Assembly: GCF_900108485.1 (NCBI RefSeq)
Contig: NZ_FNXF01000014.1
Coordinates: 1 to 64,000, forward strand
Length of the DNA stretch: 64,000 nucleotides
Origin: Rheinheimera pacifica
GTDB lineage: Bacteria; Pseudomonadota; Gammaproteobacteria; Enterobacterales; Alteromonadaceae
Reading direction: 5' to 3'
Below the pieces are notes generated by a model. It searched no databases. It saw nothing but the letters and a program-made list of their open reading frames with translations, and was not told the DNA's origin. Within the stretch, counting starts at the first letter, position 1; each line of letters opens with the position of its first letter. The translations under genes and the position numbers were made by a program. Positions 1-38,864 of the stretch are shown here, in pieces.

Positions 1-3000
1 ATCTTCCACCATGTAATTCAGGCGCGCCGTCGGATAATCCGGGTCCAGCGGCACATAGGCCCCTCCAGCTTTGAGGATACCCAGCAGTCCTACCACCATC
101 TGCAGAGAGCGCGGGACACACAGCCCCACCAGCGTATCAGGCCCTACGCCGTGTTCAGCACGCAGATAACGCGCTACCTGATTGGCCCGCGCGTTCAGGG
201 CTTCATAACTTAAGGACTGTCCTTCAAATACCAGGGCCGTGGCCTGTGGCTGCTGACGCACCTGCGCCTCAAACAGCTCATGCATGCACACATCCTGCGG
301 ATACGCCACTTCTGTGCGGTTCAGGTCGTGCACTAAATGCTGTACCTCTTGCGCACTTAACATGGTCACGTCAGAGAGACAACATGCTGTATCTGGTAAC
401 ACCTGTTTCATGACTTCTAACAGGTGATCAGAAAGGCGCTGAATTGTGGCTTCCTTGAAAAGGTTGGTGTTATAAGCCCATTGCAAGCTTATTCCATCGT
501 CTCTGACCACTGCATCCAACTGAATATCAAATTTTGCCATCACAAAATCCGTGTAGAAGCGCTCAAATTGGAGGCCTTCAATGGAAAAATGCTCGGCTTT
601 GTTGGTGTTCATGGACAGAACAATTTGAAACAGAGGATTATGTTGCGTGCTGCGCTCGACGTTGAGCTGATCCACCAATTGTTCGAATGGAATGTCCTGG
701 TGGGCCTGAGCAGTAAGGTTAACACTGCGGGTTTGTTCAAGTAGAGCAGAAAAACTTTCTACATTCTGAATATTGTTTCTCAGCACCAGTGTGTTAATGA
801 AAAAGCCCACCATACCTTCCGTGGCCTTATCAGTTCTGTTAGCAACTAAAGTGCCCAAAAGCACATCATCATTGTTACCATTGCGGGCTATCACTAAGGT
901 TAGCAAGGCGTGTAACACCATGAAATTAGTGTAGTTAAAAGCTTTTGCCACCTCATTAAACCTGGATGCCAATTCAGCATCTACCTCGCAAAAAACATAA
1001 GCACCATTGAAGGTATTGGTCTTAGGTCTGGGGTAATCCAGCGGTAAGCTATGAACAACTGGCGCTTCCACAAGTTGTTCCGCCCAATAATCCAACTGCT
1101 TTTGCAACACGTCACCCGTAAGATAATTACGTTGCCAAGCAGCGAAATCAGCGTATTGCAAAGTCATTGACGGTAAAACTACCTCTTCACCCGCTATGAA
1201 TGCTTGATATAAGGCAACAAACTCTTTGACCAATATGCTCATCGACCAGGCATCAGAGGCAATATGGTGTACGTTAAACAGCAATACCCCTTGCTCACTA
1301 TCCAGCTTCAGCCAGGTTATTCTAAGCATGACATCCTGTTTAATGTCGAAAGGTTGTTGTTCGTCCAGAGTAGCGAGGCGGATCACTTCTGCCTCCTTGT
1401 CTGCATCGTCGATAGTTGACAGATCCAGCATTCTTACATTGGGCTCTACATTATCTAAAATGATCTGTACGGCTTGCTCATTTTCATATCGATACACGGT
1501 ACGTAAAATTTCGTGCCGCTTAATGATATGAGATAGCGCCAAGTTAGCGACTTCGAGGTTAAACTGACCCTGGACCTTGAAGTAAATAGGCATGTTGTAA
1601 AGTGCCGAACTTCCCCTCTCCAATTGATCGATAAACCAGAGTCTCTGCTGAGCAAACGACAAAGGTATTGGTTGAGTTCTATCAATTTCAGAAATAGCTG
1701 GTCGCGTAGGGTCAGCCGCCACTTCAGAAGCATTAGCATTAATAAATTGCGCCAACGATTCGATAGTAGGGTTTTCAAATATTTCTACGACCGATATTTC
1801 ATATCCCAGTCTGTCTCTGAGCGCCGACACCAGACGAACTGTTAATAAAGAGTGACCACCTAAAGAGAAGAAGTTGTCAAGTACACTTATCACGTCTTCC
1901 GCTACGTTGAGAAGCTCAGACCAGATATCTACAAGGTCTTTTTCTAACTGGTCTCTGGGAGCGACGAATTCCTTGTTACTACCGAAGACTATTGGCTCAG
2001 GAAGCGTGCTTTTATCAATTTTACCACTGGGAGTCAGCGGCCATTTATCAATGAGGACAAACGCCGACGGGATCATATGTTCAGGTAAAACTCTGGCTAA
2101 GCCCATTTTCAACTGACTAATCAAGTCTTCCATGGATACTTTAATGGTTTTGGCTGCTTCGAGATAACCCACCAGTTGCAGGCTTCCTGTGCCAAAATCT
2201 TTGGCCACTACCACGCAGTTTTTCACATCGGGTAATACCAACAGCTGCTGTTCGATTTCACCCAGCTCGATTCTGTGACCTCTAATTTTCACCTGATCAT
2301 CTGCGCGCCCAAGATAATCAATAAAACCGCCTTCGGATACACGCGCCAGATCCCCTGTTCGGTACAATCGGCGACGCTGACCATCACCCAAATCAACGTA
2401 GATGAAACGCTCTGACGTCAGCTTTTCATTATTGAGGTAACCTCTTGCCAAACTATTTCCACCAATATACAGCTCACCAATGCTGTCCTGAGGCAATAAT
2501 TGATGTTGATCGTTGAGTACAAAGTGCTGATAGTTAGCCAGTCCATGGCCCAGGGAAAGTTTGTAATTGTTAGCCAGTTTGCGAGTGACGTGATTGGTCA
2601 AGGACCAGACAGTTGCTTCCGTAGGGCCATAGCAGTTAAGAGGTTCAATTTTTAATTGTTTGAACTTTTTCAACAGTTCTTTAGAAAGGGCTTCACCACC
2701 CGTTAAGGCATTAAAACTGTAAGCTGGTTTTAAACCAGCCTCAATCAGTTGAGTCCAGCGTGATGGCGTTGTCTGTATAACGCTGAAAGGCTTCTCATTA
2801 ATGTAGCGTGCCAGGGCAATAGGATCATCAGACATCTCATTGCTGGCGATCACGCAGGTGCCGCCAGTTGTCAGGCATCCCAGCCATTCAAATAATGAAA
2901 TATCAAATGAAATAGTAGTGAGTAACAGCCACGGAGCTGGAATGTCTATTTGTGGTAAAGCGCCCGTCATGCCCTGTATAAAATTAACAGCCGCTTTGTG

Positions 3001-5097: not shown

Positions 5098-5099
5098 GA

Positions 5100-8000
5100 T
5101 TAAAGCTCTCCCTCTTCGATCTCTTTCCCTGCTTCACTAAGCTCCTTGTGCCTGATTTGAGCAAGTGAGTGATGCGTCACAATATGGCTGGCCAACATTT
5201 TAATAGTGGGGTTAGCGAAGAACTCATGAATTGACAGGTTTTTATCCGGGACTTTGAATTCGTGACGGATCGCGGCAATAACACGAGTAATAAGCAGAGA
5301 ATCCCCACCTAACTCGAAAAAACTGTCCAAAACACCGATTTGATTAATACCCAGCAACTGCTGCCAGATTTCCACGAGTCGCAACTCTACAGGCCCCTTA
5401 GGTGCTACATAGTCATTGATGACATCAGGACGGTCCGACGTTTGTACCTGCTTACCTATTTCAATATCTGAATTTACCCACTTGCTGATGCGGCTGTCTA
5501 AATTGCCGCATGAGTGCACAATCTGTGGTGCATCTGCCGTGCATAGAGCATGCAATAGCGCTTTGATACCCTGCTTTGGAGTTACAGCAAAGTACCCTGA
5601 ACTCTGACTCGGTTGTTGTTCGAAATCCCATCCATCCCAGTTGATGGACAGCCAATTGTCTTCCCCAGACAGGTGTTTTGCTGCCACAAAACTATCCATG
5701 TAGGCGTTTGCTGCGGCATAGGCAGTAAATCCAAGACCACCCAATATGGCGGCAAGCGACGACATTAAAACAATGAAGTCGGGTTCCCGACTTGAAATCA
5801 CCTTGTCCAGCACCAACAATCCTTTGATTTTGGCACTGTATTGCTGCTCAAAGTGCTCAGCGTTCAACAAGCTCAGAGGAACTGCAGAATTGTGTACCTG
5901 GCCAGCGGCGTGGATTACACCATTTACCGTACCGTAAGTGTGCTCAGCGAACGAAAATGCGCTCTCCAGAGATTGCTCGTCACTCACATCAGCCTGGACT
6001 AGCCTCACCTTTGCACCTTGGGCAAGCAGTTGCTGAACTTGTAAGAGTTTCACGGCCAGTTCATCACCTTGTTCCGCACCATCAATGTACCTTTGCCATT
6101 GATCGTCGGAAGGAAATTGACGACGGCTCACCAACACCACGTTGGCCTTGTATTGCTCTGTAAGTTCAGCAGCAATTGTCAAACCGATTTTGCCAAGACC
6201 ACCTGTAATGAGGTATACCCCGTTTTTACGAATCTGGTTGCTGGCACCTTTTGCAGCCTGCACGCCTTTGCGGTAGTGACTTATCCATCTTTGCTGGTAC
6301 CTTAACGCTACCTGAAAAGGCTTGTCTTTGAGTAGTGATTCTTTAACGATGGCCTTCGCATAATTTTCTGTGACCTGAGAGGAGGTTTCTGTAGTCAGAG
6401 ACAGATCGATAAGTTGACAGTGCACTCCGGGGTATTCTTGAGGAGCAACCAAAGCTACGCCAGAGGTGGTGGCTGCTGCAGGGTTAATCTGCTCACAGCC
6501 ATTTACCTGTATGCTATTGGCAGTCACAAAGCTTACCTGTAATTTGCCCAGCTCCGGATTGGCTGTAAACGCCTGTAAAGCCAGCACTGCACTGCGGTTT
6601 CCGACTCTCTCACAAACATCGAAATCTACCGATGATGCCCCCCCCAAAGACGAACTCACACCTGCACAGTGGATCATTCGATGCGGAAACAATGACTGTG
6701 ACTGCAGTACTTCAGTTAAACGTTCAAAGTCAGTTTTACTTTGAGAGTTGACGGTGAAGCTATTGGCTGAATTTTGTGCGAACTGCGCAGCCAAACGCAC
6801 CTGAACGACCAACTGATTTTGTTTTTCCAGGGTCGCAATCAAATCGTTAGTCAGCTGAGAATCCTCGCCGAGCACCATCCACACATCGCTTTGCGCTGGT
6901 TGCTCTGATGCGAGTTTTTTAACGGATTGCAGCTGCCAGCACCTGCGATAGAAAGTGTTTTCAACATCTTCGGGGTTGGCGACGTGCTCATTGCCGACAT
7001 CGTTCGTTTCGGCGGCGTCAATCCAGTATTCTTTGCGTTGAAATGGATATGAAGGTAGCGAAACCCGATAATTGATTGCTGACGATGTAATAGATTCTCG
7101 ATCAACTTGTCCACCGAATTTCCAAAACTCCCCAAGGGTTTTAAGCCAGAATGTGTAATCATCTGTGTTATCCCTTACGTGAGGCAAACAAGAAAGGACT
7201 CTTACATCGCCCTTGCCTTTTTGCTTATGGGCAAGCATGGAAAGGCTGGTACCAGGTCCAACTTCCAACAAAATTACGGTATCATTTGCATGAGCATCAA
7301 GCAGACATTTCAGACCGTCACCAAAGCGTACCGGTTCGCGCAAATGTCGCCCCCAGTATTCCGCCGTTGACACCGACTCGTTTGCTTGCATACCAGTCAA
7401 ATTGGAAATAAACGGCAATTCAGGGGCTTTGAGAGAAGTCGCATCTATGCTCTCTACCAAAGGTTCAACCGCAGCCTGCATCATTGACGAATGGAAAGCG
7501 TGTGAGGTTTGCAGGATTCTGAAATCCGCATTCAGGTTTTTCAGTTTGTCTTGTAATGGCGATAATTGCCGTTCAGAGACCGAGATAACACAAGCCCTTG
7601 GTCCGTTAATTATTGCCAGTTCAGTCCCAGTTTCAGCCAGTACAGATTGCAAGTCTTGCTCACCAAGTGCCACTGAAACCATGTACCCGGGTTCCATGGA
7701 ATTCATCAAGATACCGCGGCGCGCGACAATTCTAATTGCCTGCTCCACCGACATAACACCAGCCAGTGACGCTGCCGTATATTCCCCAATACTATGACCT
7801 ATCATGCCATTAGGCTTGATTCCCATATCCATTAGCAACCGGCCAAGGCTCCATGAATAAGTAAACAGCAAAGCCTGAGCGTAGTGAGTTTGATTGACCA
7901 GCTCCGATATCTCATTACTTCGCTCATCCTCTAAAGCCAGAAACTGACGCAAATCTACATCCAGTTCGTGTGCGAATAAATCTGCACAGAAATCAAAGTA

Positions 8001-11000
8001 ACTGGCAAAATGCGCAGATTCTTTATAAAGAGAACTTGCGGCTCCGTAATATTGACTGCCTTGCCCCGGAAACATAAATATAACTGCGACATCTTCAACA
8101 GCAGGTCTGCTTGTTACTGGGTCACGCCAAGCGGCTTCCAACTCTGCAACGCTGCTAACAACCTGTGTATCACGCCAAGCAAATGCCGTTCTGCCCATTC
8201 TTAGGGTATGTGCAACATCTGAAATGGATAATTCAGGATGTTGCTTTAAATGACTAACTAACCGCTTGCGCGTCTCGTCCAACGCCCCCTTGGTACGTGC
8301 CGATACCATCACTAGCGAGCTAAACTGTTGTCCATCAGCATGCTTTGGTTGTTCAGGCGGTTGCTCCAGAATAAGATGGGCATTGGTGCCACCGATGCCA
8401 AATGAACTAACCCCTGCCCGGCGAGGCGTTTTCGATTCTGGCCAGTCCATCAGCTCACTGTTCACCGTGAACGGACCATTGCTAAACTCAATTGAAGGAT
8501 TCGCTCGCTCAAAGTTGATAGATGGTGGTATTTGGCCATACTTTAAAACCTGAAGCGTTTTGACCACGCTGGCCACTCCGGCAGCGGCATCAAGGTGACC
8601 AATGTTGGGCTTTACAGCACCAAGATAAGCGCCTTGTCGCCCCTGTTTGCCATATGCACGGTTTAGCGCTTTAACTTCAATAGGATCGCCCAATGAAGTC
8701 CCGGTTCCGTGGGCTTCAACGTACCCCACAGATTCTGGATCTACATGCGCATTTTCAAGGGCTTTACGGATCACATCAGCCTGACCGGTAACACTTGGTG
8801 CTGTATAACCTGCTTTGTATTTACCATCATTATTCAAGGCTGATCCTTTGATAACACCATGAATATTGTCTTTGTCTCTGATGGCATCTGACAGCCGTTT
8901 TAACACCAGCAAAGCGCCGCCATCACCACTTCGGGTGCCCGTCGCGTCTGCGTCGAAAGTGCGGCAGTGGCCGTCTTTTGCCAATATACCACCCTCCTGA
9001 TAGGTATAGCCTTCAGATCCAAATTGCCCTACTTTTGCGCCGCCAGTGATTGCCATGCGACACTCGTTACGCAAAATACTCGTCATCGCCAGATGAATAG
9101 CTACCAGTGAAGTGGAGCACGCCGTGGATACGGTCAATGCTGGTCCATCGAGGTTGAGTTTGTGGGATAAACGCGTAGCGGCAAAATCACGACCGTTACC
9201 GAACTGCACCTCCATACCCAAGGTTTTTACCATCTCTTTGTGAGTTATCAGGTTATTAATGAAGTAGAAGCTCTCGCCCACCCCCACAAATACACCTACA
9301 TTGCGTTTTTTAGCTGCATTCCCATAACCTGCATCGTCGAGAGCTTCAACAGCTACCTCAAGCAACAAGCGTTGCTGAGGATCCATTAGCTGTGTTTCAC
9401 GCGGTGTGTAGCCGAAATAATCCGCATCAAAAGTTCGAATATTGTCTATTGCTGCGCCTGCACTAATGTAATTTTCATTATTGAATAATTCTTCAGGAAC
9501 ACCAGCTTCAGCCAGTTCCTTTTCAGAGTACCAATGCAGCGATTCGTGACCTACTTTCAGGTTTTCCCAGAAAGTACTGACATCTCCGGCATCTGGAAAG
9601 CGGCCGGCCATACCAATAACGGCGATGGGTTCAACACTAAGCTGAGTTTCGATGTCGTGATGTTCATCGATTGCTGAATCTTCTTCGAGGCCTGTGATAA
9701 AAGCTGCCATTGAACGAATAGTGGGATATTCAAATATGTCTGTCACTGTTACATCAAAACTACCCATGTCCTTCATTTTTACAACTAATTGGAAGCTTAA
9801 AAGTGAGTTACCACCGATATCAAAAAAGTTATCCAGAACGCTGATTGGATCTCGCTTCAACAAATCTTGCCAAATGGTTAGCAGGGACTTTTCTACAACA
9901 GATTTAGGTTTGCTAAATGCTGCTCCCCGGACCTCATATCCCCAATGTTGCCGTAAGGCATCGCGGTCAATTTTACCATTTTCGGTGAGAGGGAATGCCG
10001 GCATGAACGCGTAATGATTAGGCAGCATGTATTTGGGGACACGCTGCTTAAGATATGTTTTGATTTCATCAATTAGTGCCTGACGCTGGGTCACATCAGA
10101 CAAATCGACAGCTTCTGTCGGGATGACATGAGCCGCTAATTGTTGTTCCCCATTGATGTCACGCACCAGCACAATTACATTGGAAACTCTACTCAACTGA
10201 CTAATATATGACTCAATCTCACCCAGTTCAATCCGATAACCATTGAGTTTAGTTTGATTGTCTTTGCGAGCGATGAAGCTGATATTTCCATCATTGCCCC
10301 GTCGCGCAAGGTCACCGGTTTTATACATTTTTTGGCCCGGGTAAAAGGGATCATTCACAAAAGCAGTTGTAGTTGCGAGACTGTCATTTAAGTATTCGGT
10401 AGCAAGGCCCGCTCCACCTATGTAAATCTCTCCCTTGATACCTTCCAATACAGGATGTAGTCGTTCGTCCAGAACGTAAATGCGGGTATTGTCGATAGGC
10501 TTGCCAATGGGCACTGCTGCAGAGACGTCTGTCGCGGCATCAAATTGGTAAATCATACAGCCCACCGTTGCTTCTGTGGGTCCGTATTCATTATAGATTT
10601 TTGCACCTGGTGGCAGTTTCGATAAGACTCCGGCAGCCAATGAGGAGGACAATTGCTCGCCACCAAGAATAAACCTGTTCAGAGCAGATTGGCTGATATC
10701 CATTTCGCTAATCAGGCTCAGGTGTGCCGGAGTCAATTTAACTAAAGACATTTGCTGATCTGCCACCAGTTTCGCCAGTGTTTTAACAATATCACTTTCG
10801 GCAAAAACCCGAATGCCAGCGCCACATACAAGAGGGGCAAACAGCGTTGTTACTGTCAGATCAAAGCCGAGCGAAGTGAATAATGGCATCTTATCACCAA
10901 CTGATATGCCATAGCTTTTCACAGCCCAGTTAATGTAGTTGCTAACCCCTTTATGCGGTACTACAACCCCTTTGGGTTTGCCCGTGGTACCCGAGGTGAA

Positions 11001-12974: not shown

Positions 12975-12976
12975 GC

Positions 12977-15900: not shown

Positions 15901-16072
15901 CGTGGCGATTGACCAGACTTTCAAATTTTGCCTTCTGTTGCTGCGGTTCCAGACTAGAGTCTAATTGTATAACTGCCCGATAATAAGGCAGCTGGGAACC
16001 CACAGATGCTGAATTTAATACTTGTCGTTGCTGATGTGATATCAGGAAATTGAGTTCTTCGTTTAACGCCAT
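12977..16072 (-). CDS. NRPS half-module, interface-like domain-A(Asn)-T
   Basis: 1,031 residues. The first ~420 are a condensation-superfamily domain in which the HHxxxDG motif reads SSLVCDH (near residue 129), so it lacks the catalytic His and should not form peptide bonds. It resembles the interface domains described in siderophore synthetases, which partner SyrP-type beta-hydroxylases; assignment to that clade is inference. The adenylation domain (YTSGSTG near 566) gives a code of about DLTKVGEVGK, asparagine-like (Asp would usually have H and I at positions 7 and 8). The carrier has GGDSI near 952, followed by an acidic C-terminal tail. The condensation domain needed for this module is found at the C-terminus of the 3,107-residue NRPS, so the module is split over two proteins with the hydroxylase gene between them. 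85 nt separate it from the dioxygenase gene upstream. Confidence 0.92.
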   Translation of the reverse strand: MALNEELNFLISHQQRQVLNSASVGSQLPYYRAVIQLDSSLEPQQQKAKFESLVNRHEIFRTRFVQELGMKEPVQQISEEATDMRWAVSQEEPDTIDGNVSLSLDNLIEATLYVSDSGLQTLHLNISSLVCDHHSLEQICFELAQSDETDESVQYVDFSQWQDDVVQEDEPARAFWQKNANKQLPFAKLPGESNTKGYEQRSSSEFALSNTAPGQADSSWLLSLWMTILARFSGAEQLAVLVHFDGRISEDFTLGIGPYSRMLPLVMAVKSEMTGEQLQGQIKRNIGQLNSNQMSMPVIPNTELAGSIGFECLQNTVFSDKFSGEVCLLSSSLVNDQCVLKLSCRFADGNLQARILYNATRYSQEFIDVLRKSLVALQANWDTSKSLDAQHLVTTTDDAAHLRRATEYNHELKVVDMIQQTAAIYPQNIAVESYDDNLTYQELNQKANQLSHQLLAGGIGVQKLVGICFERSFELSIAMLAVLKTGAAFIAIDPKTPPQRATVILENADIVLTDKKSGSYDALKVWQGTTICVDKDGSEQLQLSTENPEVAIHSSSPAYILYTSGSTGKPKGVVISNAALSNYIQHSTHTYLTNSSGAVVHTSIGFDLTITGLLAPLTIGKKVVMVADAVGVDALQATLAKQSEKVMLKLTPSHLKVLATWLENTTAEDFPIDTLVVGGEALYKSDIAMLQRDFPSLNIFNEYGPTEATVGCCLYKCRSEQPAAQMIPIGHPISGTELYVLDNNMKILPRYCTGELYIGGLGLAEGYLKQPQLTASRFIELALPDGTHKRLYKTGDLVRLEADGFVYLGRNDSQVKIRGHRVEVGEVEAVLKKALPVDDVVVKAGHNQFDEVELIAYVKTTQHLTLEDLHKTVSDTLPAYMLPAHIICLEEFPLTQNGKVDMIILPDVADLINSKVEYVAPRNDVEKSFSDAFRAVLKLENVGIKDNFFVMGGDSIRAVQLVSSINESGYELSVEDLFNLPNIEALAQFALENKVQVNSEDACTVEALLNELNDLSEEEVALKLAELEEEL

Positions 16073-16157
16073 AATAGCATCCCTAGCATTAATAAGTGCG
16101 GCGCCCCACCTTTTGAAACGTGAAGCACTTTGATGTTGTTTTTTTAGTTATTAAGTG

Positions 16158-17237: not shown

Positions 17238-17248
17238 TGTCACAGCCC

Positions 17249-26572: not shown

Positions 26573-29500
26573 AGCATGCCTTCCTCGTAAAATTCTTCAT
26601 CTTCTGCAGATTTACCTTCTGAAATGTCGTGAAGCTGTCTGATTAACTCCCCTGATAACTGTTCCAGAGATTCACTTTTAAACATCAATGCAATCGGAAC
26701 TGTTAATTCAAAATCAGTTTTCAATTGTTTCTGGAGTTCCACAACCAGAAGAGAATCAAGTCCAAGGGACGTGAGAGAAACCGTTGTCTCCACCATGTTC
26801 GGCGCGGTCTCACTGACCGTGCCAATCAGTTGCTGTAAGTACTTCACCATAAGCTTTTGCGCCTTACCCGCTTTGTCAGCCTTAATATCTGCCACTAACT
26901 CGGGATCCAGCATGACCGAAGAATTCGCCTGCGACGCGCTTTGGGCATCAGCATCACTAAAGTCTTCCAAAAACATCCATTGAGTGGCATATAACTGCCA
27001 TTTATCCCAATCTATAGGTACCAATCCAATCTGGGGGTATTGACTGCTTAGGTTTAATTCCAGTGCTTCCAGATATTCAGCAGGGGTAATGCGACGGATT
27101 TCCTGATTGTTTAGAGATTTTTCGCGCTCAGGTTGCGCAGCCATACCAATCTCATCCACCATACCCAGCTGTAATGCCAGCGCTGGTAGTCCTTTCGAGT
27201 GACGATAGTTAGCCAGCCCGTCCAGGAAGGAGTTTGCGGCCGCATAGTTGGCCTGGCCTGGAGAACCAAACAAGGAGGCGGCAGAAGAAAGCATGACAAA
27301 AAATTCAAGTTCAATAGCATGGCAGGCTTTGTGCAAGTGCCATGCACCTCTGACTTTAGGTGACATAACCCTGGCAAACGATTCAGTGGTTTGATTCTGC
27401 ACACTCTTGTCATCCAGAACACCCGCAGTGTGAACAATGCCTACCAGAGGGTTGGCCGACTGTTGGATTCTGTCGATGATGCTTTTTACATCAGCCTCAA
27501 TGCTAACATCACCAATGGCAACCTGCACCGAGGCTCCTGTCAGGTTCATTTTGTTGATACTATTTTTCTCGTCTGCACTGGGTTGTCTGCGCGCCATTAA
27601 AGTGATGTGTTTGGCACCACGCTCTAACATCCATCTTGCAGTTTTCAGTGCCAGCGCGCCCAGGCCACCGGTAATAAGGTACTGTCTGTTGGCGTTGAAG
27701 CGCGGTTTGCGGGAAGCCAACTCGGATTTAACCACTTTTGTCAGGCGAGCCACCTTGCGCTCTCCGTTTAGATAAGCTACCTGAGTTTCCATATCGTCAG
27801 AGCAGACTTCATGAATGATTCGCTGTGCCTGCAGCGTTTTTGCTTCGTTAGCCTGCAAATCAATATTTTTGCAACGCAATTCCGGATATTCCTGAGCGAC
27901 AACTTTGCTCAGCCCCCAGGAAGTGCTGTGCACGATACCCATAGCAGGCTGGTCTGGAGCAAATAATTGAGCCTGCTGCGTTACCATGAAATAGCGAGGA
28001 AGGCTCTCTAAGTCACCGTCTAGGTGAGCCTGCATCAACCCCTGAATCAGAGTTAAAGACGAATAACAACCGGGCACAAGCCTGTCGTACATCGCATCAA
28101 TACAAGTGTCTTCATCAATATTGGCTCCAACGCTGGAGCAGTCTATTAACGCTTGAGGTTGACCCCAGTTTAAAGTCAGTGCCGTCAAAGCCTTTTTGAA
28201 ATCAGCCGCTTCAAGGCCGTTTACCTGATAGTGCTTGGTACTGTGAATGCGATAAGCATCAGCGAGTTCTATTGTAGCGCAAGCCATACCTTCTTTTTCG
28301 ATAGCGGCTTTCAACTGACCGGCCAGTTCCATATTTTCCGCGTTGTGTTTATCAGTAACCATCAACCAGTTGCGAGGTTTCTTACTCTCTCTTTGCGCTA
28401 TACTATTTTGTAGATCCCGCCACTCAACCCGATATAAGTGGTCAGCGGCTGTGCCGGCGGTTATTGTTGCTACCCTGCCTGCACTCTCGCTGTTGCCGCT
28501 TAAATTAGGATCCAGGGTGATCCAGAAACGCTTTCTCTGAAATGGATAATTAGGCAGTGGCAGTCGAGGTGCTTCAACACAAGGGTTGACTTTATCCCAA
28601 CGCACATGTGTACCTTGCATGTACACCCAGGCAAGAGCGTGCAAAATGTGCTCAGATGCGCTCAGCCCTTTGTCGAGAGACCAGTGACATTGCGCTTCAG
28701 AGTCTTTTGTCTGTGAGCGAGCAATTTTAGCCAGTACTGCTGATGGACCAATCTCCAGTAAAGTGTTGGCTCCCTGCCCCAGCGCTGTTTGTAATGCAGC
28801 TTCAAACAACACAGGCTGTTCAATGTGATTCACCCAATAATCAGCGCGTGTAAACTGCGCTGTCTCCAGCTCTCCAGTCACACATGATACAAATGGGATC
28901 TTAGGTTTTTGCAGAGTAACGCTGGCCACCAAACAACGAAACTCTTCGAGGATTGGTTGCATCAGTTTGGAATGAAATGCATGGGATACATTGAGTAAAG
29001 TAGATGCAATTCCTTGTTGATCCAGTTGCGCTTTAACGATTTTCAGATGCTCAGTAAGTCCGGACAACACCAATGCTTCCGGGCCATTAATGGCGGCAAA
29101 ATTCACAGAGTTAACTTCTTCAGTCAGTAACTCGGCTACGTCTGCTCGCACCGCTCTGACCGCAAGCATTGAACTTCCCACTGGCAAGCTCTGAATAAGT
29201 CTGCCTCGTTCAGCCACCAATTTGACGGCATCGTCAAGACTCATTACTCCAGCTACAACAGCAGCAGCAAATTCGCCAATACTGTGGCCCATAACCAGAG
29301 CGGGAGCGACCCCCCAGGATGACCACAGTTGTGACAGTGCATATTCAATGGCAAATATGGCAGGTTGCGTGTAAGCCGTCTGGTTGAGTAACTCGCCATC
29401 CAGTGAATCTGTATAAATCACATCCATCAGAGAATGCGCCAGATAACCAGAAAAGAGTTGGTCGCAACGTTCCATTGCCTTTTTAAATACGGGTTGGCTG

Positions 29501-32500
29501 TCCAGTAACTCGATTGCCATTGCATGGTATTGGCTGCCCTGCCCAGTGAACATAAAAGCCAAGCTGGCTTCTTCCTGTCCTTTGTTTTCAACCTTGTGGC
29601 TATTTAGCTTGCTTATCATTTTGCTAACGCTATTTGCCACTAATGCAACGCGATAAGTGTCGTTACTCTGTCCCTGGTTGAGTCTCCAGCAAAGTTGCTC
29701 AAACGGCAGATGTTGCCATTTATTTAAATGCTCTGCGTAGTTCGCCAGCATGGGCTTTATTGCTGCGGCCTGACGAGCACTCAATGCCAGTAAATGCGGG
29801 CTGGTTTCAACTGATTCAGTGCGCTCAGGCACTTGAATTTTGTCTCCCTGCTTCAACACTATATGGGAATTGCTGCCGCCAAACCCGAAGGAGCTGACCC
29901 CAACGTGTAATGGGCGACTTGCGGTACTATTAAGTTTGGTTTGCTCTACAGGCACCTTGATAGCAATGTTATTCCATGGAATGTGCCTGTTAGGGGTATT
30001 AAAATTAATTTGTGAGGGTACTTGTTCGTGGCGTAAACACTGTACTGCCTTCAATAAACCAACCATGCCAGCCGCATGTTCTAGGTGACCAACATTCGCT
30101 TTCACAGAACCAATCAACAAGGAGTTAGTCTTTTCGCGCCCGATACCATAAATATTAGACAGGGCGCCGACTTCGATAGGATCTCCAAGCGCAGTTCCTG
30201 TTCCATGCGCCTCTACAAAATCCACCTGCTCTGGCAGGATATTGCCATCTTTTAACGCTTTGTGGATAACCCGTTGCTGAGCCAGGCCGTTAGGCGCTGA
30301 AATACCGTTGCTCTTTCCATCCTGGTTGCTCGCAGTACCTTTGATAATCGCAAGCACGTTATCACCGTCAGCGCGGGCTTTGTTTAGGGGCTTCAACATC
30401 ACCATTCCGGCGCCTTCTCCGCGTACGTAACCATTGGCTTTATCGTCGAATGAGAAACAATGTCCATCAGGCGAAAGCATTTGAGCATTTCTCAGAATGG
30501 TGTGCGCTTGGCTGAACATTATGAGTTTGACCGCTCCCACCAGAGCGGACTCACACTCGCCAGTTCGAATACTTTTCACCGCTTCATGAACAGCAACCAG
30601 AGCGGCAGAGCAGGCGGTATCAATAGCCATACTGGGGCCTGTAAAGTCATAAAAATAAGACACGCGGTTGGCAGCCATACACATTGCGGTACCCGCACCT
30701 GAATAAGGATTGTGATGCTCTTCCGATGCCAGCCCCATAAGCATATAATCGTTCTGACCGATCCCCACGAACACACCAATATCTCTGCCTTTCAGTTCAG
30801 ACGGGTGATAACCTGCATGACGCATAACCTCTTCACTCAATTCTAAAATTAGGCGATGTTGCGGATCGATTAGAGGTGCTTCTTTGCCTGTGATAGAGAA
30901 AAATTCGTTGTCAAAATGTTCTATATCATCCAAAAACCCTCCAGAATACACTGCACTATCTACGTCAGCGCCATAGGCGCGTGATTGTGGATAGGCACTA
31001 ACATGGCAGAGCCCGTCTAATAGGTTTTTCCAAAATTCTTCCGGCTCGTCGGAACCCGGTAAACGACAAGACATTCCGATAATGGCGATATCCCTGTCAA
31101 CAACAATGCTTTTGCTTTGTTGTTGCTGGTTTTCTGAGCTGCAAAGTATATAGTCCACTAGTTTGCGGATAGTGGGATAGTCATAAATCAGAATGGGAGA
31201 TAATTCGCGATTAATACGCTCACTTAGTTCAGCCATAAAAGACACAGATACAGCAGAGTTCAGACCCAAAGAAAAGAAGTTTGAATCAATATCGATTTGA
31301 CTCGCAGACTTGTCCAGGGCTTCGGCAATATTGTCACAAATCCATTGAATCAACTTGTCAGCGTCAACATTGATAGCAGGTATTGATTCGCTTAATTGTT
31401 GTGAATTTTCATTGTTCGCAATTGCAGACTTTTCAGTAAGTTCTAGCATGGAAGCGACACGTTCGAACTGGCCGTCCAAATACATTTGGCGATTTACAGC
31501 TCGTTGAATTTTGCCGCTGGACGTCTTCGCGACTGTAGCAGGTTTCACCAGCACGATGTCGTGCAGAGGTAGCTCCATTTCCTCTGCCACTGATTGAGAA
31601 CAGGCATGTATTGCCTCGCTGGCATTGATATTTTTGAGCTCGGTGCGTTTGACTTCTTGCACCACAACGATACCTTCACCGTCTTTGGTGGGCACAGTGA
31701 ACGCGGCGGCACAGTGTTCTGAGAATGCAGGTACACTGTTAAAAACAGTATACTCAATATCCTGAGGATAGTAGTTACGACCTCTTATGATAATCAGGTC
31801 TTTTTGTCTGCCAGTGATAAAAACGTCCCTACCCTGAACAAAGCCAAGGTCTCCAGTTCTGAGATAGGGCCCCTCCCCGGTGCTGGCTATTTTGGCGTTA
31901 AAGATTTCTTCGTTTAGCTCGTCTTTTTTCCAGTAACCCTGACCAACACACGGCGAGCGCAGCCAGATTTCGCCCACCTGACCTTCGGCCTTCTGCTCAC
32001 GCATTTCAGGATCTACTATAATAAGTTGGTCATCAAACCAGGTATGTCCTGAAGACACCAGAGAATAAGATTCTTCGTTCGATTTAGCTGGCGTTGCTAT
32101 ATTTTCTGAAAGCTTGATCTTTTCTGCTTCGAAAACGGTGGGTTCATCTTTGCAATTAACCGTTGTGATCATCAGTGTGGCCTCGGCCATTCCATAACAA
32201 GGTAAATGTGCATTAGATTTGAAGCCGTATGGTGCAAATCTCTTGGTAAACTCATTCAGTGTTTGCGCGTTGATCGGTTCGGAGCCATTAAACGCAACTC
32301 GCCAATTGCTCAGATCTATCCCTTCAAGCTCTTCATCAGTAATCTTGTCTACGCACAGCTTCCACGCAAAGTTAGGTCCACCAGATGTTGTTCCTCCAAA
32401 ATCTGAAATAGCTTTTAGCCAACGTATTGGTTTTTGTAGAAACCAGGTTGGTGACATCAAATACACAGGAAAGCCTACAAACAAGGGCTGTAAGATACCG

Positions 32501-33174
32501 CCGATAAGGCCCATATCATGGAAATAAGGCAGCCAGCTCACTACCTTAGAATTCTGATCATGTTCAAAGGCTGCGGTAATACGTAATTGGTTTTGAACGA
32601 TATTGTCATGACTGATCATGACGCCCTTTGGCGCGCCAGTTGAGCCAGAAGAATACTGTAGAAAGGCCAAATCGGTTGGTAGAATTTCTGGTAATTTAGG
32701 GGCTTGTGAGGCTGCGGGTAGGTTATCCGTCACCAATACGGCAATATGTTTTAATACCTCATCTGCCTGAAGTTGAGACTCCGAAATCACAGCAATTTTA
32801 GCGGAAGTCAAAATCAGTGACGCATCCGCATCGATTACCACGTTTTTCAACCTTTCCATATTACGATTTTTGCGCGGTGGATAAGCCGGTACTGCAACGA
32901 TGCCCGACATTAAACACGCAAAAAACGCTACAATTAGCTCTGCGCCGTTTTCGAACAATAGTAAGGCTCGATCGCCTTTTTTTACTCTCGTCAACAAATG
33001 CAGAGCCAGCTCTTGTGCCTCATCGCGAAGTTGTCGGTAAGTAAGGGTAGCTTTAGTGTCTTGTGCGGCATCTAAAAATGTGTAGACGATTTTATCGCCT
33101 TGTTGGGCAACGTGCTTTTGAAGTACACTAATCAAAGTGCCGTGCGACGAGCCATCAGATTTGCTGTATGTCAT
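26569..33174 (-). CDS. Loading protein, FAAL-ACP-KS-AT-KR-ACP
   Basis: 2,201 residues. Residues ~1-580 are a fatty acyl-AMP ligase of the FadD32/FAAL type (SSGSTGAPKG near 175) that adenylates a free fatty acid and passes it to the following ACP (GLNSA near 637). A ketosynthase (DTACSAAL near 851, EAHGTGT, NVGH) and an acyltransferase (GHSIGE near 1296; HAFHS, malonyl signature) follow. A ketoreductase (LITGGLG near 1832; LDD near 1920, a B-type signature) and a final ACP (GLDSL near 2139) complete it. No DH or ER is seen, so one malonyl extension followed by ketoreduction is expected, giving a beta-hydroxy acyl starter for the NRPS. The starter chain length cannot be read. AAGGA about 10 nt before the ATG serves as ribosome binding site. 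Its position just ahead of the NRPS genes agrees with colinear assembly. Confidence 0.95.
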   Translation of the reverse strand: MTYSKSDGSSHGTLISVLQKHVAQQGDKIVYTFLDAAQDTKATLTYRQLRDEAQELALHLLTRVKKGDRALLLFENGAELIVAFFACLMSGIVAVPAYPPRKNRNMERLKNVVIDADASLILTSAKIAVISESQLQADEVLKHIAVLVTDNLPAASQAPKLPEILPTDLAFLQYSSGSTGAPKGVMISHDNIVQNQLRITAAFEHDQNSKVVSWLPYFHDMGLIGGILQPLFVGFPVYLMSPTWFLQKPIRWLKAISDFGGTTSGGPNFAWKLCVDKITDEELEGIDLSNWRVAFNGSEPINAQTLNEFTKRFAPYGFKSNAHLPCYGMAEATLMITTVNCKDEPTVFEAEKIKLSENIATPAKSNEESYSLVSSGHTWFDDQLIIVDPEMREQKAEGQVGEIWLRSPCVGQGYWKKDELNEEIFNAKIASTGEGPYLRTGDLGFVQGRDVFITGRQKDLIIIRGRNYYPQDIEYTVFNSVPAFSEHCAAAFTVPTKDGEGIVVVQEVKRTELKNINASEAIHACSQSVAEEMELPLHDIVLVKPATVAKTSSGKIQRAVNRQMYLDGQFERVASMLELTEKSAIANNENSQQLSESIPAINVDADKLIQWICDNIAEALDKSASQIDIDSNFFSLGLNSAVSVSFMAELSERINRELSPILIYDYPTIRKLVDYILCSSENQQQQSKSIVVDRDIAIIGMSCRLPGSDEPEEFWKNLLDGLCHVSAYPQSRAYGADVDSAVYSGGFLDDIEHFDNEFFSITGKEAPLIDPQHRLILELSEEVMRHAGYHPSELKGRDIGVFVGIGQNDYMLMGLASEEHHNPYSGAGTAMCMAANRVSYFYDFTGPSMAIDTACSAALVAVHEAVKSIRTGECESALVGAVKLIMFSQAHTILRNAQMLSPDGHCFSFDDKANGYVRGEGAGMVMLKPLNKARADGDNVLAIIKGTASNQDGKSNGISAPNGLAQQRVIHKALKDGNILPEQVDFVEAHGTGTALGDPIEVGALSNIYGIGREKTNSLLIGSVKANVGHLEHAAGMVGLLKAVQCLRHEQVPSQINFNTPNRHIPWNNIAIKVPVEQTKLNSTASRPLHVGVSSFGFGGSNSHIVLKQGDKIQVPERTESVETSPHLLALSARQAAAIKPMLANYAEHLNKWQHLPFEQLCWRLNQGQSNDTYRVALVANSVSKMISKLNSHKVENKGQEEASLAFMFTGQGSQYHAMAIELLDSQPVFKKAMERCDQLFSGYLAHSLMDVIYTDSLDGELLNQTAYTQPAIFAIEYALSQLWSSWGVAPALVMGHSIGEFAAAVVAGVMSLDDAVKLVAERGRLIQSLPVGSSMLAVRAVRADVAELLTEEVNSVNFAAINGPEALVLSGLTEHLKIVKAQLDQQGIASTLLNVSHAFHSKLMQPILEEFRCLVASVTLQKPKIPFVSCVTGELETAQFTRADYWVNHIEQPVLFEAALQTALGQGANTLLEIGPSAVLAKIARSQTKDSEAQCHWSLDKGLSASEHILHALAWVYMQGTHVRWDKVNPCVEAPRLPLPNYPFQRKRFWITLDPNLSGNSESAGRVATITAGTAADHLYRVEWRDLQNSIAQRESKKPRNWLMVTDKHNAENMELAGQLKAAIEKEGMACATIELADAYRIHSTKHYQVNGLEAADFKKALTALTLNWGQPQALIDCSSVGANIDEDTCIDAMYDRLVPGCYSSLTLIQGLMQAHLDGDLESLPRYFMVTQQAQLFAPDQPAMGIVHSTSWGLSKVVAQEYPELRCKNIDLQANEAKTLQAQRIIHEVCSDDMETQVAYLNGERKVARLTKVVKSELASRKPRFNANRQYLITGGLGALALKTARWMLERGAKHITLMARRQPSADEKNSINKMNLTGASVQVAIGDVSIEADVKSIIDRIQQSANPLVGIVHTAGVLDDKSVQNQTTESFARVMSPKVRGAWHLHKACHAIELEFFVMLSSAASLFGSPGQANYAAANSFLDGLANYRHSKGLPALALQLGMVDEIGMAAQPEREKSLNNQEIRRITPAEYLEALELNLSSQYPQIGLVPIDWDKWQLYATQWMFLEDFSDADAQSASQANSSVMLDPELVADIKADKAGKAQKLMVKYLQQLIGTVSETAPNMVETTVSLTSLGLDSLLVVELQKQLKTDFELTVPIALMFKSESLEQLSGELIRQLHDISEGKSAEDEEFYEEGML

Positions 33175-33245
33175 AACTGAATCTTCCTTTACTCTATCTT
33201 TTTACTCAGCTCGATGGCAGAGCAGTACATAATGCTTGCGGGCCT

Positions 33246-34967
33246 CTATGCGGTTCCCAGTTTTTCGTCTTCAGAACGATATTTGTCGGTTTTAATTACA
33301 TCGGACATTGATATACGCGACACGTTACCGGACTCCATCCAAACAACTTTGTCTGCCAGATCGAAATATCGGTCGTCGTGTGTGATTACAACAACCGCTT
33401 TACCCTGGTCTCTCAACTGAGGTAAGTAGTGTTTATAAAAGGTGTCTTTGAAGCTCGGATCCTGATCTGCCGCCCACTCATCAAAAACATAAAGTTCGCG
33501 GTCTTCTAATAGTGCGACAAGCAAAGCAAGGCGACGTTTCTGACCATCAGATAATGAGATGGTAGAGAAGTGGCCGTTTTGTACAGTAACTTTTTCAGCC
33601 AGCCCCAACTCCAAGAGATAATCAGACACAATTGTGTCTACTTCAGAATCCTTGTAACCAAGAATGCGATTAAACAGGTAGTAGTCTGAATAAATTGAAG
33701 TAATTGTGTGTCGATAGCTTGCACGGTTGGCATCATCAACCGGAACATTATCGAAATAGATTGCACCAGCTGATGGCAAATAATGCTGTGTTATCATCTT
33801 TGACAGGGTGGATTTACCGGAGCCATTGCCGCCAACGATAAAGGTCACTTCACCCTTAGACAAGGTTAGATTGACCGGCCCAAGCTGGAACTTATCCTTG
33901 CCTTTGGCGCCCAGATTGTAGTCATAGCATACATTTTTTAAATGTATTTTTTGCCACTCAGGCGCTTTTTCTTGGGTTGATTGTAGTGTCTCTTCCTGAA
34001 GATTACTCAACAACCAGTTGAGGCGTCCCATCGAAACATTGCCAACTGAGATCAAGGGTAAACACTGTAAAATGGAATGGATTGGACTAATCATATAGAT
34101 GAGCGCCATCACCACACCAACCAGCTGAGCATGACTCAATGTGATGTAGTTGCTGATGATAAAAGTCACCACTCCAACCGCCAGAAAACTTATCAGATCG
34201 CCATAATTATTGGCTCCCTGCATCAAAATAAAACCTGATTTCTCTTTTTTGCGGATTTGCAGCTCCAGAGATTCAAGGTCTTCCTTGTAAAAAGTTTCGC
34301 GTTTTTCTTCGTTGAGCTTCAGCTCTTTTGCACCAAAGATGATGCCGCGAATTGACTCGTGAAGTTTATCGTAAATTGGTCTGGCTCTAGCGTAATGGCG
34401 TTGACCTATAATCAATGGCACCTGGTAGGTAACCAACCCGAAAAAGATCGTCGCCAGTATAAATAAGAATGTTTCAAAGCTGATGAACGCCATAAAAGCG
34501 AGTACCCCTAGCACCGACATCAAACTGATAATCAGATCGGGAATGGCAGAAACGCCAGCAATAATTCTGGGTATATCGCCTGTAACAATCGACACAAGTT
34601 TGGACTGACCAACTGATTCAATTTGCGCTATAGGTGCGCTGTTGATTCTGCGGTAGATGCTAAGTCGCAAGTTAGAAGCCGCGTTCAGGGCAACACTAGC
34701 CATCAGGGACTGAGAGAAGGTTTTAAGAACAATAATGAATGTACAGGTAGCGAAAAAGACTACCGCCAGCACTGGATTAGTCACTTCAAGCCTCAACCAG
34801 TTGATGGTTTCAGGAACGACTTCCTGAAGTTCTGCGTCTGGAGCATCCAGGGCTATCAGGACCAATGGTATCAACAAAGAAAAGGTTATACCGGTTATAA
34901 CTCCTGTCACCAGGCCAATAAAAACCTTATTTGCTGACTCTTTCACAAACACATCGAACAACTTCAT
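33246..34967 (-). CDS. Cyclic-peptide ABC exporter, PvdE/SyrD-like (TM-NBD fusion)
   Basis: 573 residues with six predicted membrane segments in the first ~330, fused to a nucleotide-binding domain. Walker A GGNGSGKST lies near residue 384, the signature variant LSDGQ near 470, and Walker B YVFDEW near 495 with H-loop VVITHDD downstream. Length and domain order fit the cyclic-peptide transporter family (PvdE, SyrD), which moves acylated peptide precursors across the inner membrane. It lies between the acylase-like gene and the FAAL-PKS gene in the same orientation, so it is the likely exporter of the lipopeptide. PvdE with the acylase PvdQ in pyoverdine assembly is the closest known parallel. 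Confidence 0.93.
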   Translation of the reverse strand: MKLFDVFVKESANKVFIGLVTGVITGITFSLLIPLVLIALDAPDAELQEVVPETINWLRLEVTNPVLAVVFFATCTFIIVLKTFSQSLMASVALNAASNLRLSIYRRINSAPIAQIESVGQSKLVSIVTGDIPRIIAGVSAIPDLIISLMSVLGVLAFMAFISFETFLFILATIFFGLVTYQVPLIIGQRHYARARPIYDKLHESIRGIIFGAKELKLNEEKRETFYKEDLESLELQIRKKEKSGFILMQGANNYGDLISFLAVGVVTFIISNYITLSHAQLVGVVMALIYMISPIHSILQCLPLISVGNVSMGRLNWLLSNLQEETLQSTQEKAPEWQKIHLKNVCYDYNLGAKGKDKFQLGPVNLTLSKGEVTFIVGGNGSGKSTLSKMITQHYLPSAGAIYFDNVPVDDANRASYRHTITSIYSDYYLFNRILGYKDSEVDTIVSDYLLELGLAEKVTVQNGHFSTISLSDGQKRRLALLVALLEDRELYVFDEWAADQDPSFKDTFYKHYLPQLRDQGKAVVVITHDDRYFDLADKVVWMESGNVSRISMSDVIKTDKYRSEDEKLGTA

Positions 34968-35029
34968 TTGCCGCTACTTCCTTATTGTGAAATCAGAAAA
35001 ACGGAGGGTGTTTTTAGACAAAGAATTCA

Positions 35030-37396
35030 TCACCTGTTTACCCAGTCATCTGCTAAGGGGGACTGATGTTCATACCAGGGACTGAACATGTTGCTTGACT
35101 GCCCCCTTAACAAAAGCAAGCTGGTGGATATATTTTCCTCTCCGTGATGAATGACTTTCATTGCAGGAGTCTGTTTAGTGACAATACCTTTACCGAATTT
35201 ATACTGATTTAATTCAGGTTTTAAAACTGTAATGGAAGGTTCAAGCTGAATTGGTTGATTCAACACACTTTTAAGTATGTTAGTTTGACCAAAGATGCTA
35301 TGAGCAAACTCCCCATGCTGTAAATTGTCCAGAGTCCAGTTGTTTATGTCTCGACCTGCAAGCAGAGAGATTTCTCCTATGGCACTGTCCAAGGCCTGCT
35401 CAACTATTGACGCACACTGAGTGCCAGTTTCACTTGCATCAGCTCGGCAACGGGATGCTGTTGCTTCAAGTTTTTGCTGCAGGTAATCAACGGACAAGGC
35501 AGCCCCCCACTGAGAAGCATGCTGATCAGACACTCGAAGAATTTTGTTATCTTCAAAAGCATCGAGCACCAACAGTTTTCGGTAGTGGGTGAGCCATGCT
35601 GCATAGATAACCTGCGGAACCGTACTGCTTTGTTGTGAGGACATTTCATCACGCAAACGAGCAAGCACAGTTTTTCTTTCGCTGTTTTCAGTCACTAAGT
35701 CCAACAGCAATGGAAGTAGTGTCTTATTATCGTTCCTTCCGACTTCTGACAAAATTGAGTGCAGTTCATTTAAAGACAATGCATCTAGAGACAATGCATA
35801 GCTTTGCTTAGAGGCAACCCGTGCAACCGAATTAGATTTACCTGATGTAAACGTTAACCAGCCTTTTTCGGGGTTAATCAATGATGTCATGTTTTGCGGT
35901 GCCACAAATGATGTCCAACTTGAATTCGTGCTACCAGCCTGTATCGGCAGCTTACCTTCTCCTGAATGGCGTACAGGAACTTTTCCACTGGCCTGCATAC
36001 CAATATTACCTTCTGAATCAATATACAAAAAATTCATTGCGGGAGCGACGACACCAGCAGACGCTTCCACAAAAGCGCTCCAGTTTTCAGCGTGGCTAAG
36101 TTTTAAGATGGACTCGTAGCTCGTGTCAGCATCATTAAAACCTGTCCACACTAAACTGACAGGCAAATCGGTATCTAGTAGTTCGGATAACAATGGGCCA
36201 TTGTTGGTTGATTTCACTGTGAGCTGAACATCTTGAATGGGGTTGCGTAAAAAGCTTGGAAAATTGGCCCTGACCTTGATGGCTTCTACCCTGTAATCGA
36301 CGGTCAACCATTTACCACCGTAAAGATATTCGCCCTGCTTCGCGGGATTGAACTGCTCAACAATTAAGTCCTGAGTGTCTGCCAATGCCGGACTACCCAC
36401 CCACGATATGCTGCCATTTTCGCCAAACATTACTGCAGGGACTCCAGGTAAAGTCACGCCAGCCAATTTATGTGACTCTGCGTTTAGCCTTGCATAATAT
36501 GGCGTCGCCGAGTATTCCGTAGCTGAAAGCAAGGTATATGCAAGATACGCCTTATCTTTTTGCAGCAGTTGAGGAGACGTAACGATTCCTTCTATGGCAG
36601 TAAACGCACCACCAAAATTGAAATCTTTTTGTAGCTCTGTTACAGAAGCCAAAGACTTGCTTTTGAGTGGTGTGAAAAGCAGCTGACTGGAGAAATCAAT
36701 ATCAATTTCGCTATTTCCTGCAAATAGACTGCTCTGGTAGTCAATGCCAAACAATTGCAACAGCTGTAAACGCTCGTAGTCTTTGTGGAAGCTGGCATTT
36801 AGCTCAAACGCATATACTTTGAAAATGGCTAATGTGTCCAGGGGACTCCACGGTTGAGGCTTGATTGCGGAAACAGAAAACTCCAATGGGAGTTGTTGAG
36901 CGTGCGCTAACCAATAATTAACGCCGTTGCTGTAGGCGTTTAAAATAGCCAATGTCGAATCAGACATCGCCGCAAGATCTTTCGTGGCCTGATTATAAAA
37001 ACCCATGGTTCGGGCGAATTTATCTATATGTAACTTCTGCGCGCCATACACTTCGCTCAGGCGCCCGGCAGCCTTTCGTCTTAGTAGCTCCATTTGCCAC
37101 AGTCTGTCCTGGGCATGCGCAACACCTAAACCGTAATAAATGCCTATCAATTCATCACCTGAGATAAGAGGCACACCTTGTGCATCGCGTTGAATTGATA
37201 GTTCAGGATAAGCCTTAAATTCGCCTTTATAATAATCACTTTGGGGCAAAGACGTGCCCAGATAAAGCCTGACTAAAACTAACATCACAGCTACAGGAAT
37301 AATAATCAGCGACACCAACCTCCATAAGATTGGCCGCCTCCTAATTACTGAATTGAACGGAACAAAACGAGTGATTTTATTATTATATATTGTCAC
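35030..37396 (-). CDS. Membrane-anchored penicillin-acylase-like (S45) protein, probable pseudoenzyme
   Basis: 788 residues starting with GTG. A basic N-terminus and one transmembrane segment (about 25-48) place the rest in the periplasm. Clear S45/Ntn-hydrolase landmarks are present: YGLGVAHAQDRLWQMELLRR, VTLPGVPAVMFGENG, KVPVRHSGEGKLP and a C-terminal GQSSNMFSPWYEHQ. Where active enzymes have the autoproteolysis/nucleophile site (GSNxW), this one reads FGGAF near residue 262. The DPHL region and the ATANN-type catalytic Asn region (here TFTSGKS) are also not recognisable. Family acylases such as PvdQ deacylate lipopeptide precursors in the periplasm, but this protein appears unable to self-cleave or catalyse. 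It is the first gene of the biosynthetic operon. Possible roles are a scaffold, a chaperone or a substrate-binding partner. Confidence 0.85.
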   Translation of the reverse strand: MTIYNNKITRFVPFNSVIRRRPILWRLVSLIIIPVAVMLVLVRLYLGTSLPQSDYYKGEFKAYPELSIQRDAQGVPLISGDELIGIYYGLGVAHAQDRLWQMELLRRKAAGRLSEVYGAQKLHIDKFARTMGFYNQATKDLAAMSDSTLAILNAYSNGVNYWLAHAQQLPLEFSVSAIKPQPWSPLDTLAIFKVYAFELNASFHKDYERLQLLQLFGIDYQSSLFAGNSEIDIDFSSQLLFTPLKSKSLASVTELQKDFNFGGAFTAIEGIVTSPQLLQKDKAYLAYTLLSATEYSATPYYARLNAESHKLAGVTLPGVPAVMFGENGSISWVGSPALADTQDLIVEQFNPAKQGEYLYGGKWLTVDYRVEAIKVRANFPSFLRNPIQDVQLTVKSTNNGPLLSELLDTDLPVSLVWTGFNDADTSYESILKLSHAENWSAFVEASAGVVAPAMNFLYIDSEGNIGMQASGKVPVRHSGEGKLPIQAGSTNSSWTSFVAPQNMTSLINPEKGWLTFTSGKSNSVARVASKQSYALSLDALSLNELHSILSEVGRNDNKTLLPLLLDLVTENSERKTVLARLRDEMSSQQSSTVPQVIYAAWLTHYRKLLVLDAFEDNKILRVSDQHASQWGAALSVDYLQQKLEATASRCRADASETGTQCASIVEQALDSAIGEISLLAGRDINNWTLDNLQHGEFAHSIFGQTNILKSVLNQPIQLEPSITVLKPELNQYKFGKGIVTKQTPAMKVIHHGEENISTSLLLLRGQSSNMFSPWYEHQSPLADDWVNR

Positions 37397-38106: not shown

Positions 38107-38134
<28 letters not shown>
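37973..38134 (+). pseudogene. IS3-family transposase OrfA, C-terminal remnant
   Basis: After an in-frame TGA the frame encodes about 53 residues ending ELRRKEKALAETAALLVLRK and then NALWENDNEDD. This is the typical coiled-coil C-terminus of an IS3-family OrfA. The N-terminal helix-turn-helix half is absent. It overlaps the start of the orfB remnant in another frame, as in intact IS3 elements where OrfAB is made by frameshifting. Confidence 0.75.

Positions 38135-38864
<730 letters not shown>

Follow-up and report, generated by a model that had tools for sequence, protein, structure and literature searches.

A predicted lipopeptide assembly line of Rheinheimera pacifica with interface-type modules and a putatively linked AstB paralogue

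Assembly line of the window

The window analysed here comprises bases 1–64000 of a contig of 132,882 bp (C18) in the 4.46 Mb genome of Rheinheimera pacifica, which is assembled in 46 contigs. Its megasynthase genes lie on the minus strand (Table 1), and in transcription order the full domain string reads FAAL-T-KS-AT-KR-T / C-I-A-T-C-A-T-C / TauD / I-A-T / C-A-T-KS-AT-KR-T / docking-C-A-T-C-A, with the last A domain cut. A sequence-only reading had described a FAAL-primed PKS–NRPS lipopeptide line with colinear domains. This order was recovered by Pfam and by profiles built from the window's own domains, with a carrier domain between FAAL and KS. A check for frame breaks, suggested in the same reading, found all megasynthase ORFs, as well as those of the ABC exporter and the acylase-like protein, open at the coordinates given there. 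These coordinates stand; the extent assigned to the cluster does not, as the island reaches to about 44,930 rather than 37,396 (see below) and includes the TauD gene at 16158–17252.

Table 1. Predicted features of the 64,000-nt window, in order of position
Feature	Position	Strand	Basis
Docking-C-A(DIFQLGCVW)-T-C-A, truncated at the contig end	1..5097	-	Pfam, A code, profiles
NRPS–PKS C*-A(DLTKIGEVG, Asn)-T-KS-AT-KR-T	5100..12974	-	Pfam, A code, profiles, motifs
C* domain, motif EPHSISDGWS	11481..12836	-	Sequence comparison
NRPS I-A(DLTKVGEVG, Asn)-T	12977..16072	-	Pfam, A code, profiles, alignment
TauD-family oxygenase of the class paired with the Asn module (WHNENTFN)	16158..17252	-	Pfam PF02668; 40–47% to counterparts in related clusters
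NRPS C-I-A(DPENIGAIT)-T-C-A(DILQLIGIY)-T-C	17249..26572	-	Pfam, A codes, domain profiles
First I domain (interface type), C-like; neither catalytic His retained	23723..25027	-	Pfam, domain profiles, alignment
FAAL-T-KS-AT-KR-T; predicted fatty acid activation and one malonyl extension to hydroxyl	26569..33174	-	Pfam, NCBIfam FAAL models below cut-off, motifs, domain coordinates
ABC exporter, cyclic-peptide type	33246..34967	-	TIGR01194, 377.6 bits vs cut-off 286.2; 44% to the exporter of the MAG cluster
Penicillin-amidase-like protein without Ntn nucleophile	35030..37396	-	Pfam 397.6 bits; motif comparison
RND efflux pump and periplasmic adaptor, within the island	38894..43164	-	Profile matches
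Phosphopantetheinyl transferase, within the island	43452..44531	-	Profile matches

The FAAL region consists of a Pfam AMP-binding and a DIP2-like domain, and the NCBIfam FAAL models fit best there, albeit below their strict cut-offs. Both AT domains carry HAFH, the malonyl type, and both KR domains carry the S...YxxxN residues, in agreement with the earlier view that the malonyl units are reduced to hydroxyl. Carrier, AT and KR motifs were all recovered by pattern; the KS motif was missed in one protein but is visible in its translation.

The A codes were read against a GrsA fragment. The two codes assigned to Asn before, at residues 3 and 4, were again read as Asn; the second of these, as DLTKIGEVGK, stands in the Asp/Asn section of PMC12283262, and a cyanoalanine-type residue is also compatible with it. 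The codes of residues 2 and 5 are Gly-like. The former differs from the Gly code listed in PMC12283262 (DILQLGMIWK), while its counterparts in the related clusters read DILQLGMIW. Neither a product matching the cluster nor a match to its A-code strings was found in the literature searched, most subscription papers lying outside its reach.

The code of residue 1 (X1) was placed by phylogeny. In a FastTree analysis the X1 A domains of the window and of two related clusters (from a metagenome-assembled genome, MAG, and from Pseudoalteromonas peptidolytica, see below) form one clade with support of 1.0, nested in an 11-member clade (0.98) in which all 11 codes have Glu at position 239. Several of the Orn and Lys codes quoted in PMC12283262 share this Glu. 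Together the codes support a basic residue as X1, with Arg, Orn and Lys being indistinguishable.

Island limits and a probable continuation on a second contig

In blastn comparisons with four close relatives from the same genus, in which the flanking protein is 96–98% identical, alignment is confined to the part of the window right of 44,932–45,061, and the next ~17 kb in each of the four match neither the window nor the fetched end of contig C43 (see below). On this comparison the cluster is taken to be an acquired island ending near window base 44,930. An edge at this position places the RND pump and the phosphopantetheinyl transferase inside the island. The export, efflux and phosphopantetheinyl transferase genes that had been noted nearby are all present, matched by Pfam or NCBIfam. 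G+C content, calculated in 2-kb steps, is 0.43–0.48 over 1–44 kb vs 0.46–0.51 over 46–64 kb, and neither the window nor the C43 stretch contains a tRNA. The island contains a transposase fragment at 38107–38763. To the right of it, window positions 54994–55524 match the PADLOC candidate defence model PDC-S07 (E = 2.3e-11). Three other genomes of the genus (G014:C3, G013:C51 and G024:C1; loci L016, L017 and L019) encode an NRPS as a single open frame, of 10,047, 10,026 and 10,014 aa, respectively.

The window begins at base 1 of C18, so that the contig end interrupts the cluster within an A domain. Condensation-family matches in the genome are confined to C18 (nine) and C43 (one). At its end C43 encodes T-C-A(DAKNLGCIN)-T-TE, preceded by the C-terminal piece of an A domain, and then a paralogue of AstB whose gene overlaps the end of the TE gene. 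Beyond AstB lie a second TauD gene, transposase genes, a PF05118 hydroxylase gene on the opposite strand and a type II thioesterase gene. The two A-domain pieces match a full domain at approximately positions 1–94 (C18) and from ~440 onward (C43), so that a single module comprising both would have a gap of about 1 kb. The C43 end probably carries the rest of the cluster, on an inferred linkage between two contigs that are not physically joined. The thioesterase release domain was found on C43, and its place at the end of the window's line hangs on this linkage. An Orn-like assignment of the last residue (DAKNLGCIN) was discarded, as its A domain falls outside the basic clade in the FastTree analysis.

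The PF05118 Asp/Arg hydroxylase gene (L013:7016-7522, plus strand) adjoins the cluster end, and related genes also occur near two other NRPS clusters (L086, L094). IS3-type transposase ORFs occupy L013:7653-8815, between the second TauD gene and the PF05118 gene. Of the 15 AMP-binding matches in the genome, seven are on contigs other than C18 and C43; their open frames, 453–661 aa long, look like free-standing ligases.

A core shared with otherwise different clusters

Related clusters were identified in P. peptidolytica DSM 14001, in a second Pseudoalteromonas (G754) and in the Alteromonadaceae MAG DT_5, where the cluster contig (JABSOJ010000012.1) measures 68,896 bp. What these clusters have in common is a colinear core: an I-A(DPENIGA[IV]T)-T stretch with its basic-type code comes first, then a Gly-type module, the TauD, the Asn-coded I-A-T and an unusual C domain (C*); the remaining modules differ. 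Comparison of window and MAG gave reciprocal best hits, with conserved order, for all nine core domains; with P. peptidolytica it did so for 7 of 9, all but the Gly A domain and the second I domain. The C* domain is 39% identical to those of the MAG and P. peptidolytica (346–354 bits, next best 80 bits). When genome contigs were scanned with a C* alignment, three loci were retrieved, from the DT_5 MAG, from P. peptidolytica DSM 14001 and, at 30%, from a Herpetosiphonaceae MAG. A scan of genome contigs with the 3107-aa NRPS as query returned no relative.

The individual components are more widely distributed. When the I-A-T protein was searched against 60 relatives, 16 genomes including the window's own gave matches, those outside it at ≤39% identity, and the TauD search of 246 genomes of the family gave 21 genomes with a match at 1e-60 or better, own included. 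In the P. peptidolytica genus group (108 genomes), C* matches at 1e-60 occur in ten, of which two exceed 700 bits; the second of these two is G754, whose P. peptidolytica-type cluster contains frame breaks. The G754 cluster (L172-L177) is split into more ORFs, with one TauD in two pieces, through either sequencing error or decay. In the class as a whole C* was found in five of 369 genomes including the window's own, the other four scoring 146–291 bits. In two of these four the match follows a Thr module; we considered a dehydrating role for the domain.

The likeness to the P. peptidolytica cluster (contig00014) extends over I-A(DPENIGAVT)-T-C-A(Gly)-T-C-TauD, I-A(Asn)-T and C* and includes AstB, FAAL, a second TauD and a KS-AT-KR module. 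Unlike the window, that cluster starts with FAAL-C-A(DVWSVGMVH)-T, has E-type C domains and lacks a PKS before X1; it goes on with Phe-PKS, Ser, Gly and Ser, and its end lies beyond the contig. No described product of it was found in the literature searched. The MAG cluster has the same core together with AstB, an acylase, an ABC exporter and a type II thioesterase, but differs from the window in its additional modules, its E-type C domains and an acylase with GSNAW. Overall, the relatives have another residue before X1, use E-type C domains and continue with Phe-PKS, Ser, Gly, Ser and more. The conserved core appears transferable between otherwise different lipopeptide lines.

Interface domains are partners of TauD β-hydroxylases in NRPS lines. 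In the five C-like domains aligned here (two each from window and MAG, one from P. peptidolytica) both His of HHxxxDG are lost and the Asp is kept. The two TauDs represent two classes, each with a counterpart in the relatives, and both show the HxD/E and distal His motifs; a PDB sequence search with both gave three matches each, with no NRPS hydroxylase among them. The partnership is named in PMC12230676, and TauD enzymes of NRPS lines that β-hydroxylate Asp and His (IBH_Asp and IBH_His) have been described in siderophores (PMC12971057). An I domain without HH before an A domain, plus a TauD enzyme, is common to these systems and the window. Conversely, the siderophore enzymes described there act on Asp and His, whereas the A codes adjacent to the I domains of the window are Asn (DLTKVGEVG) and basic-type (DPENIGAIT).

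The acylase-like protein reported nearby is homologous to acylases and has a full-length frame, yet its catalytic nucleophile is absent. TAIEG replaces GSNAW, so that the N-terminal Ser nucleophile of GSN is gone, and a shifted frame is not the cause as both other frames contain stops at this position. GSN is kept in 24 of 24 other fetched homologues, the best from 135 matching genomes among 246; the cluster acylases of the MAG and G754 keep it. The protein is probably non-catalytic. A PvdQ-like maturation model was rejected on account of the missing nucleophile; the PvdQ model NF051460 scores 22.7 bits against this protein, with a cut-off of 950.

AstB paralogue and proposed product

AstB is known as an arginine-degrading enzyme, and its usual substrate is N-acyl-arginine. 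A single AstB is present in every one of 30 other genomes of the genus, against two in the window's genome. The clusters of the MAG, P. peptidolytica and G754 each have an AstB gene immediately upstream of FAAL. The cluster copy on C43, a member of the succinylarginine dihydrolase family, is 35–39% identical to the other AstBs compared and fails both model cut-offs (383.8 vs 538.3 bits for TIGR03241, 435.9 vs 452 for NF009789); the copies of the MAG and P. peptidolytica clusters pass the AstB equivalog cut-off. E174, H245 and C360, the catalytic Glu, His and Cys, are invariant across seven AstBs including the C43 copy, in which the substrate loop is changed. Phylogenetic analysis of 34 AstBs paired the cluster copies of the MAG and P. 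peptidolytica (99/81), at a point where long branches meet. The C43 copy sits on a very long branch, and the grouping of all three reaches 68/76 only. Ser, Lys and Asn are common to these three at positions where the other 31, assumed to be housekeeping copies, have Ala (31/31), Ala (29/31) and Gly (30/31); the cluster-specific residues occur in none of the 31.

Four other clusters with FAAL and two TauDs, from other members of the family (G067, G071, G093 and G667), have no AstB within the 80 kb fetched around each, and none was found in the fetched stretches of five further genomes with TauD near NRPS modules. Anywhere in the genome, AstB is absent from G067 and G093 and present once, elsewhere, in G071; of the four genomes, these three were covered by that search. 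Because the P. peptidolytica and G754 clusters are nearly identical, the four AstB-positive cases count as about three. It should also be noted that G067, without AstB, has the basic-clade code DIESIGTVT; a basic residue alone therefore does not call for AstB. A class-wide search of 369 genomes at 1e-96 gave the own copy only and, as it misses the P. peptidolytica (4.7e-91) and MAG (4.2e-88) copies, is no guide to frequency. No paper naming both AstB and an NRPS was found in the literature searched, nor did any of the 10 titles listed, out of 466 papers matching related terms, concern the pairing.

The core, the occurrence of AstB in each cluster, the domain order, the codes and the acylase loss are sequence evidence, and from them we infer every chemical step of the following proposal. 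FAAL would activate a fatty acid that is extended once to a 3-hydroxyacyl chain. The peptide would then be built in the order basic X1, Gly-like, β-hydroxy-Asn, Asn plus malonyl (a statine-like unit) and Gly-like, followed by the residue coded in the assembly gap and the last residue (DAKNLGCIN), before thioesterase release. Each TauD would dock on an interface domain and hydroxylate the residue on the neighbouring carrier. AstB would strip the guanidine part of the arginine-derived X1, free or N-acylated, to give ornithine; as X1 would be directly acylated by the 3-hydroxyacyl chain, a step from N-acyl-Arg to N-acyl-Orn is attractive. The acyl chain would stay on because the acylase appears dead, and export would proceed via the ABC and RND systems. 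We put forward such a lipopeptide, with two interface-dependent β-hydroxylated residues (basic and Asn) and an arginine-derived residue converted into ornithine by AstB, as a tentative reading with somewhat less than an even chance of being correct. The more general claim is rather unlikely as it stands, i.e. that an AstB-family enzyme serves as NRPS tailoring enzyme, turning an N-acylated, β-hydroxylated arginyl residue into ornithine on the growing or finished lipopeptide, together with an interface hydroxylase for the basic residue, in a core carried between different lines of marine gammaproteobacteria.

If the AstB of the cluster only fed the pool of free ornithine, or of another arginine product, the peptide would be untouched and the cluster would make an ordinary new lipopeptide. 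The family is an arginine-degrading one and the MAG and P. peptidolytica copies pass the equivalog cut-off, both in keeping with a supply role, which is thinkable in the MAG since its genus mate G093 has no AstB. In the window's genome and in P. peptidolytica, however, a second, housekeeping AstB is present, ornithine is a normal metabolite, and the substrate loop of the window genome's cluster copy is altered; we regard mere supply as unlikely. The same loop changes, together with the long branch, could instead indicate a changed reaction, which leaves citrulline or acts on another group and makes X1 a different arginine derivative. Retention in this copy of the residues invariant in seven AstBs, catalytic ones included, speaks against it, though this holds by definition; a changed reaction appears improbable.

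Interface domains with TauD β-hydroxylases are best known from siderophores (PMC12971057), and hydroxylated residues of the lipopeptide might accordingly bind iron. The codes of the hydroxylated modules are Asn and basic-type, not Asp or His, no TonB-dependent receptor was found among the island ORFs scanned with Pfam, and the island contains efflux genes, so that an iron-binding role appears very improbable. Scarcely more probable is decay of the cluster to a point where its product is no longer made: the acylase has lost its nucleophile, and the cluster has transposase genes and a fragment of a transposase next to it, but all megasynthase ORFs are open, the carrier, AT, KR and KS motifs are present, and the acylase itself retains a full-length frame. 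If the AstB-modified lipopeptide is right, interface domains would serve residues other than Asp and His, and a catabolic enzyme for N-acyl-arginine would have a second life in making ornithine for lipopeptides. The core, i.e. the I module with DPENIGA[IV]T, C* and AstB, offers a genomic marker for a lipopeptide family with no described product in the literature searched.

Among known marine lipopeptides, the flavipulchrins of Pseudoalteromonas flavipulchra (Pfl cluster) resemble the predicted product, as they combine a single PKS extension with β-OH-Asn, for which a free TauD (PflD) is proposed (PMC12819058). They differ in a Cs start, a PKS with aminotransferase and the order Gly-Asp-OHAsn-Asn-Thr-Leu-Arg, and AstB is not mentioned in the main text of that paper. 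The turnercyclamycins of Teredinibacter turnerae are said to contain β-OH-Asp (PMC12971057); their lipid ions, given as 325.28 and 351.30 (PMC9692312), fit acyl-ornithine by arithmetic, which is a lead only. Lastly, the clusters of G067, G071, G093 and G667 (L100-L115) represent a second conserved type spread over several genera, with FAAL, an ABC exporter and two TauDs, one free and the other fused behind a C domain. A codes were read in G067 alone of these four, where three of six are Asp-type, and this second cluster perhaps makes a β-OH-Asp lipopeptide siderophore.
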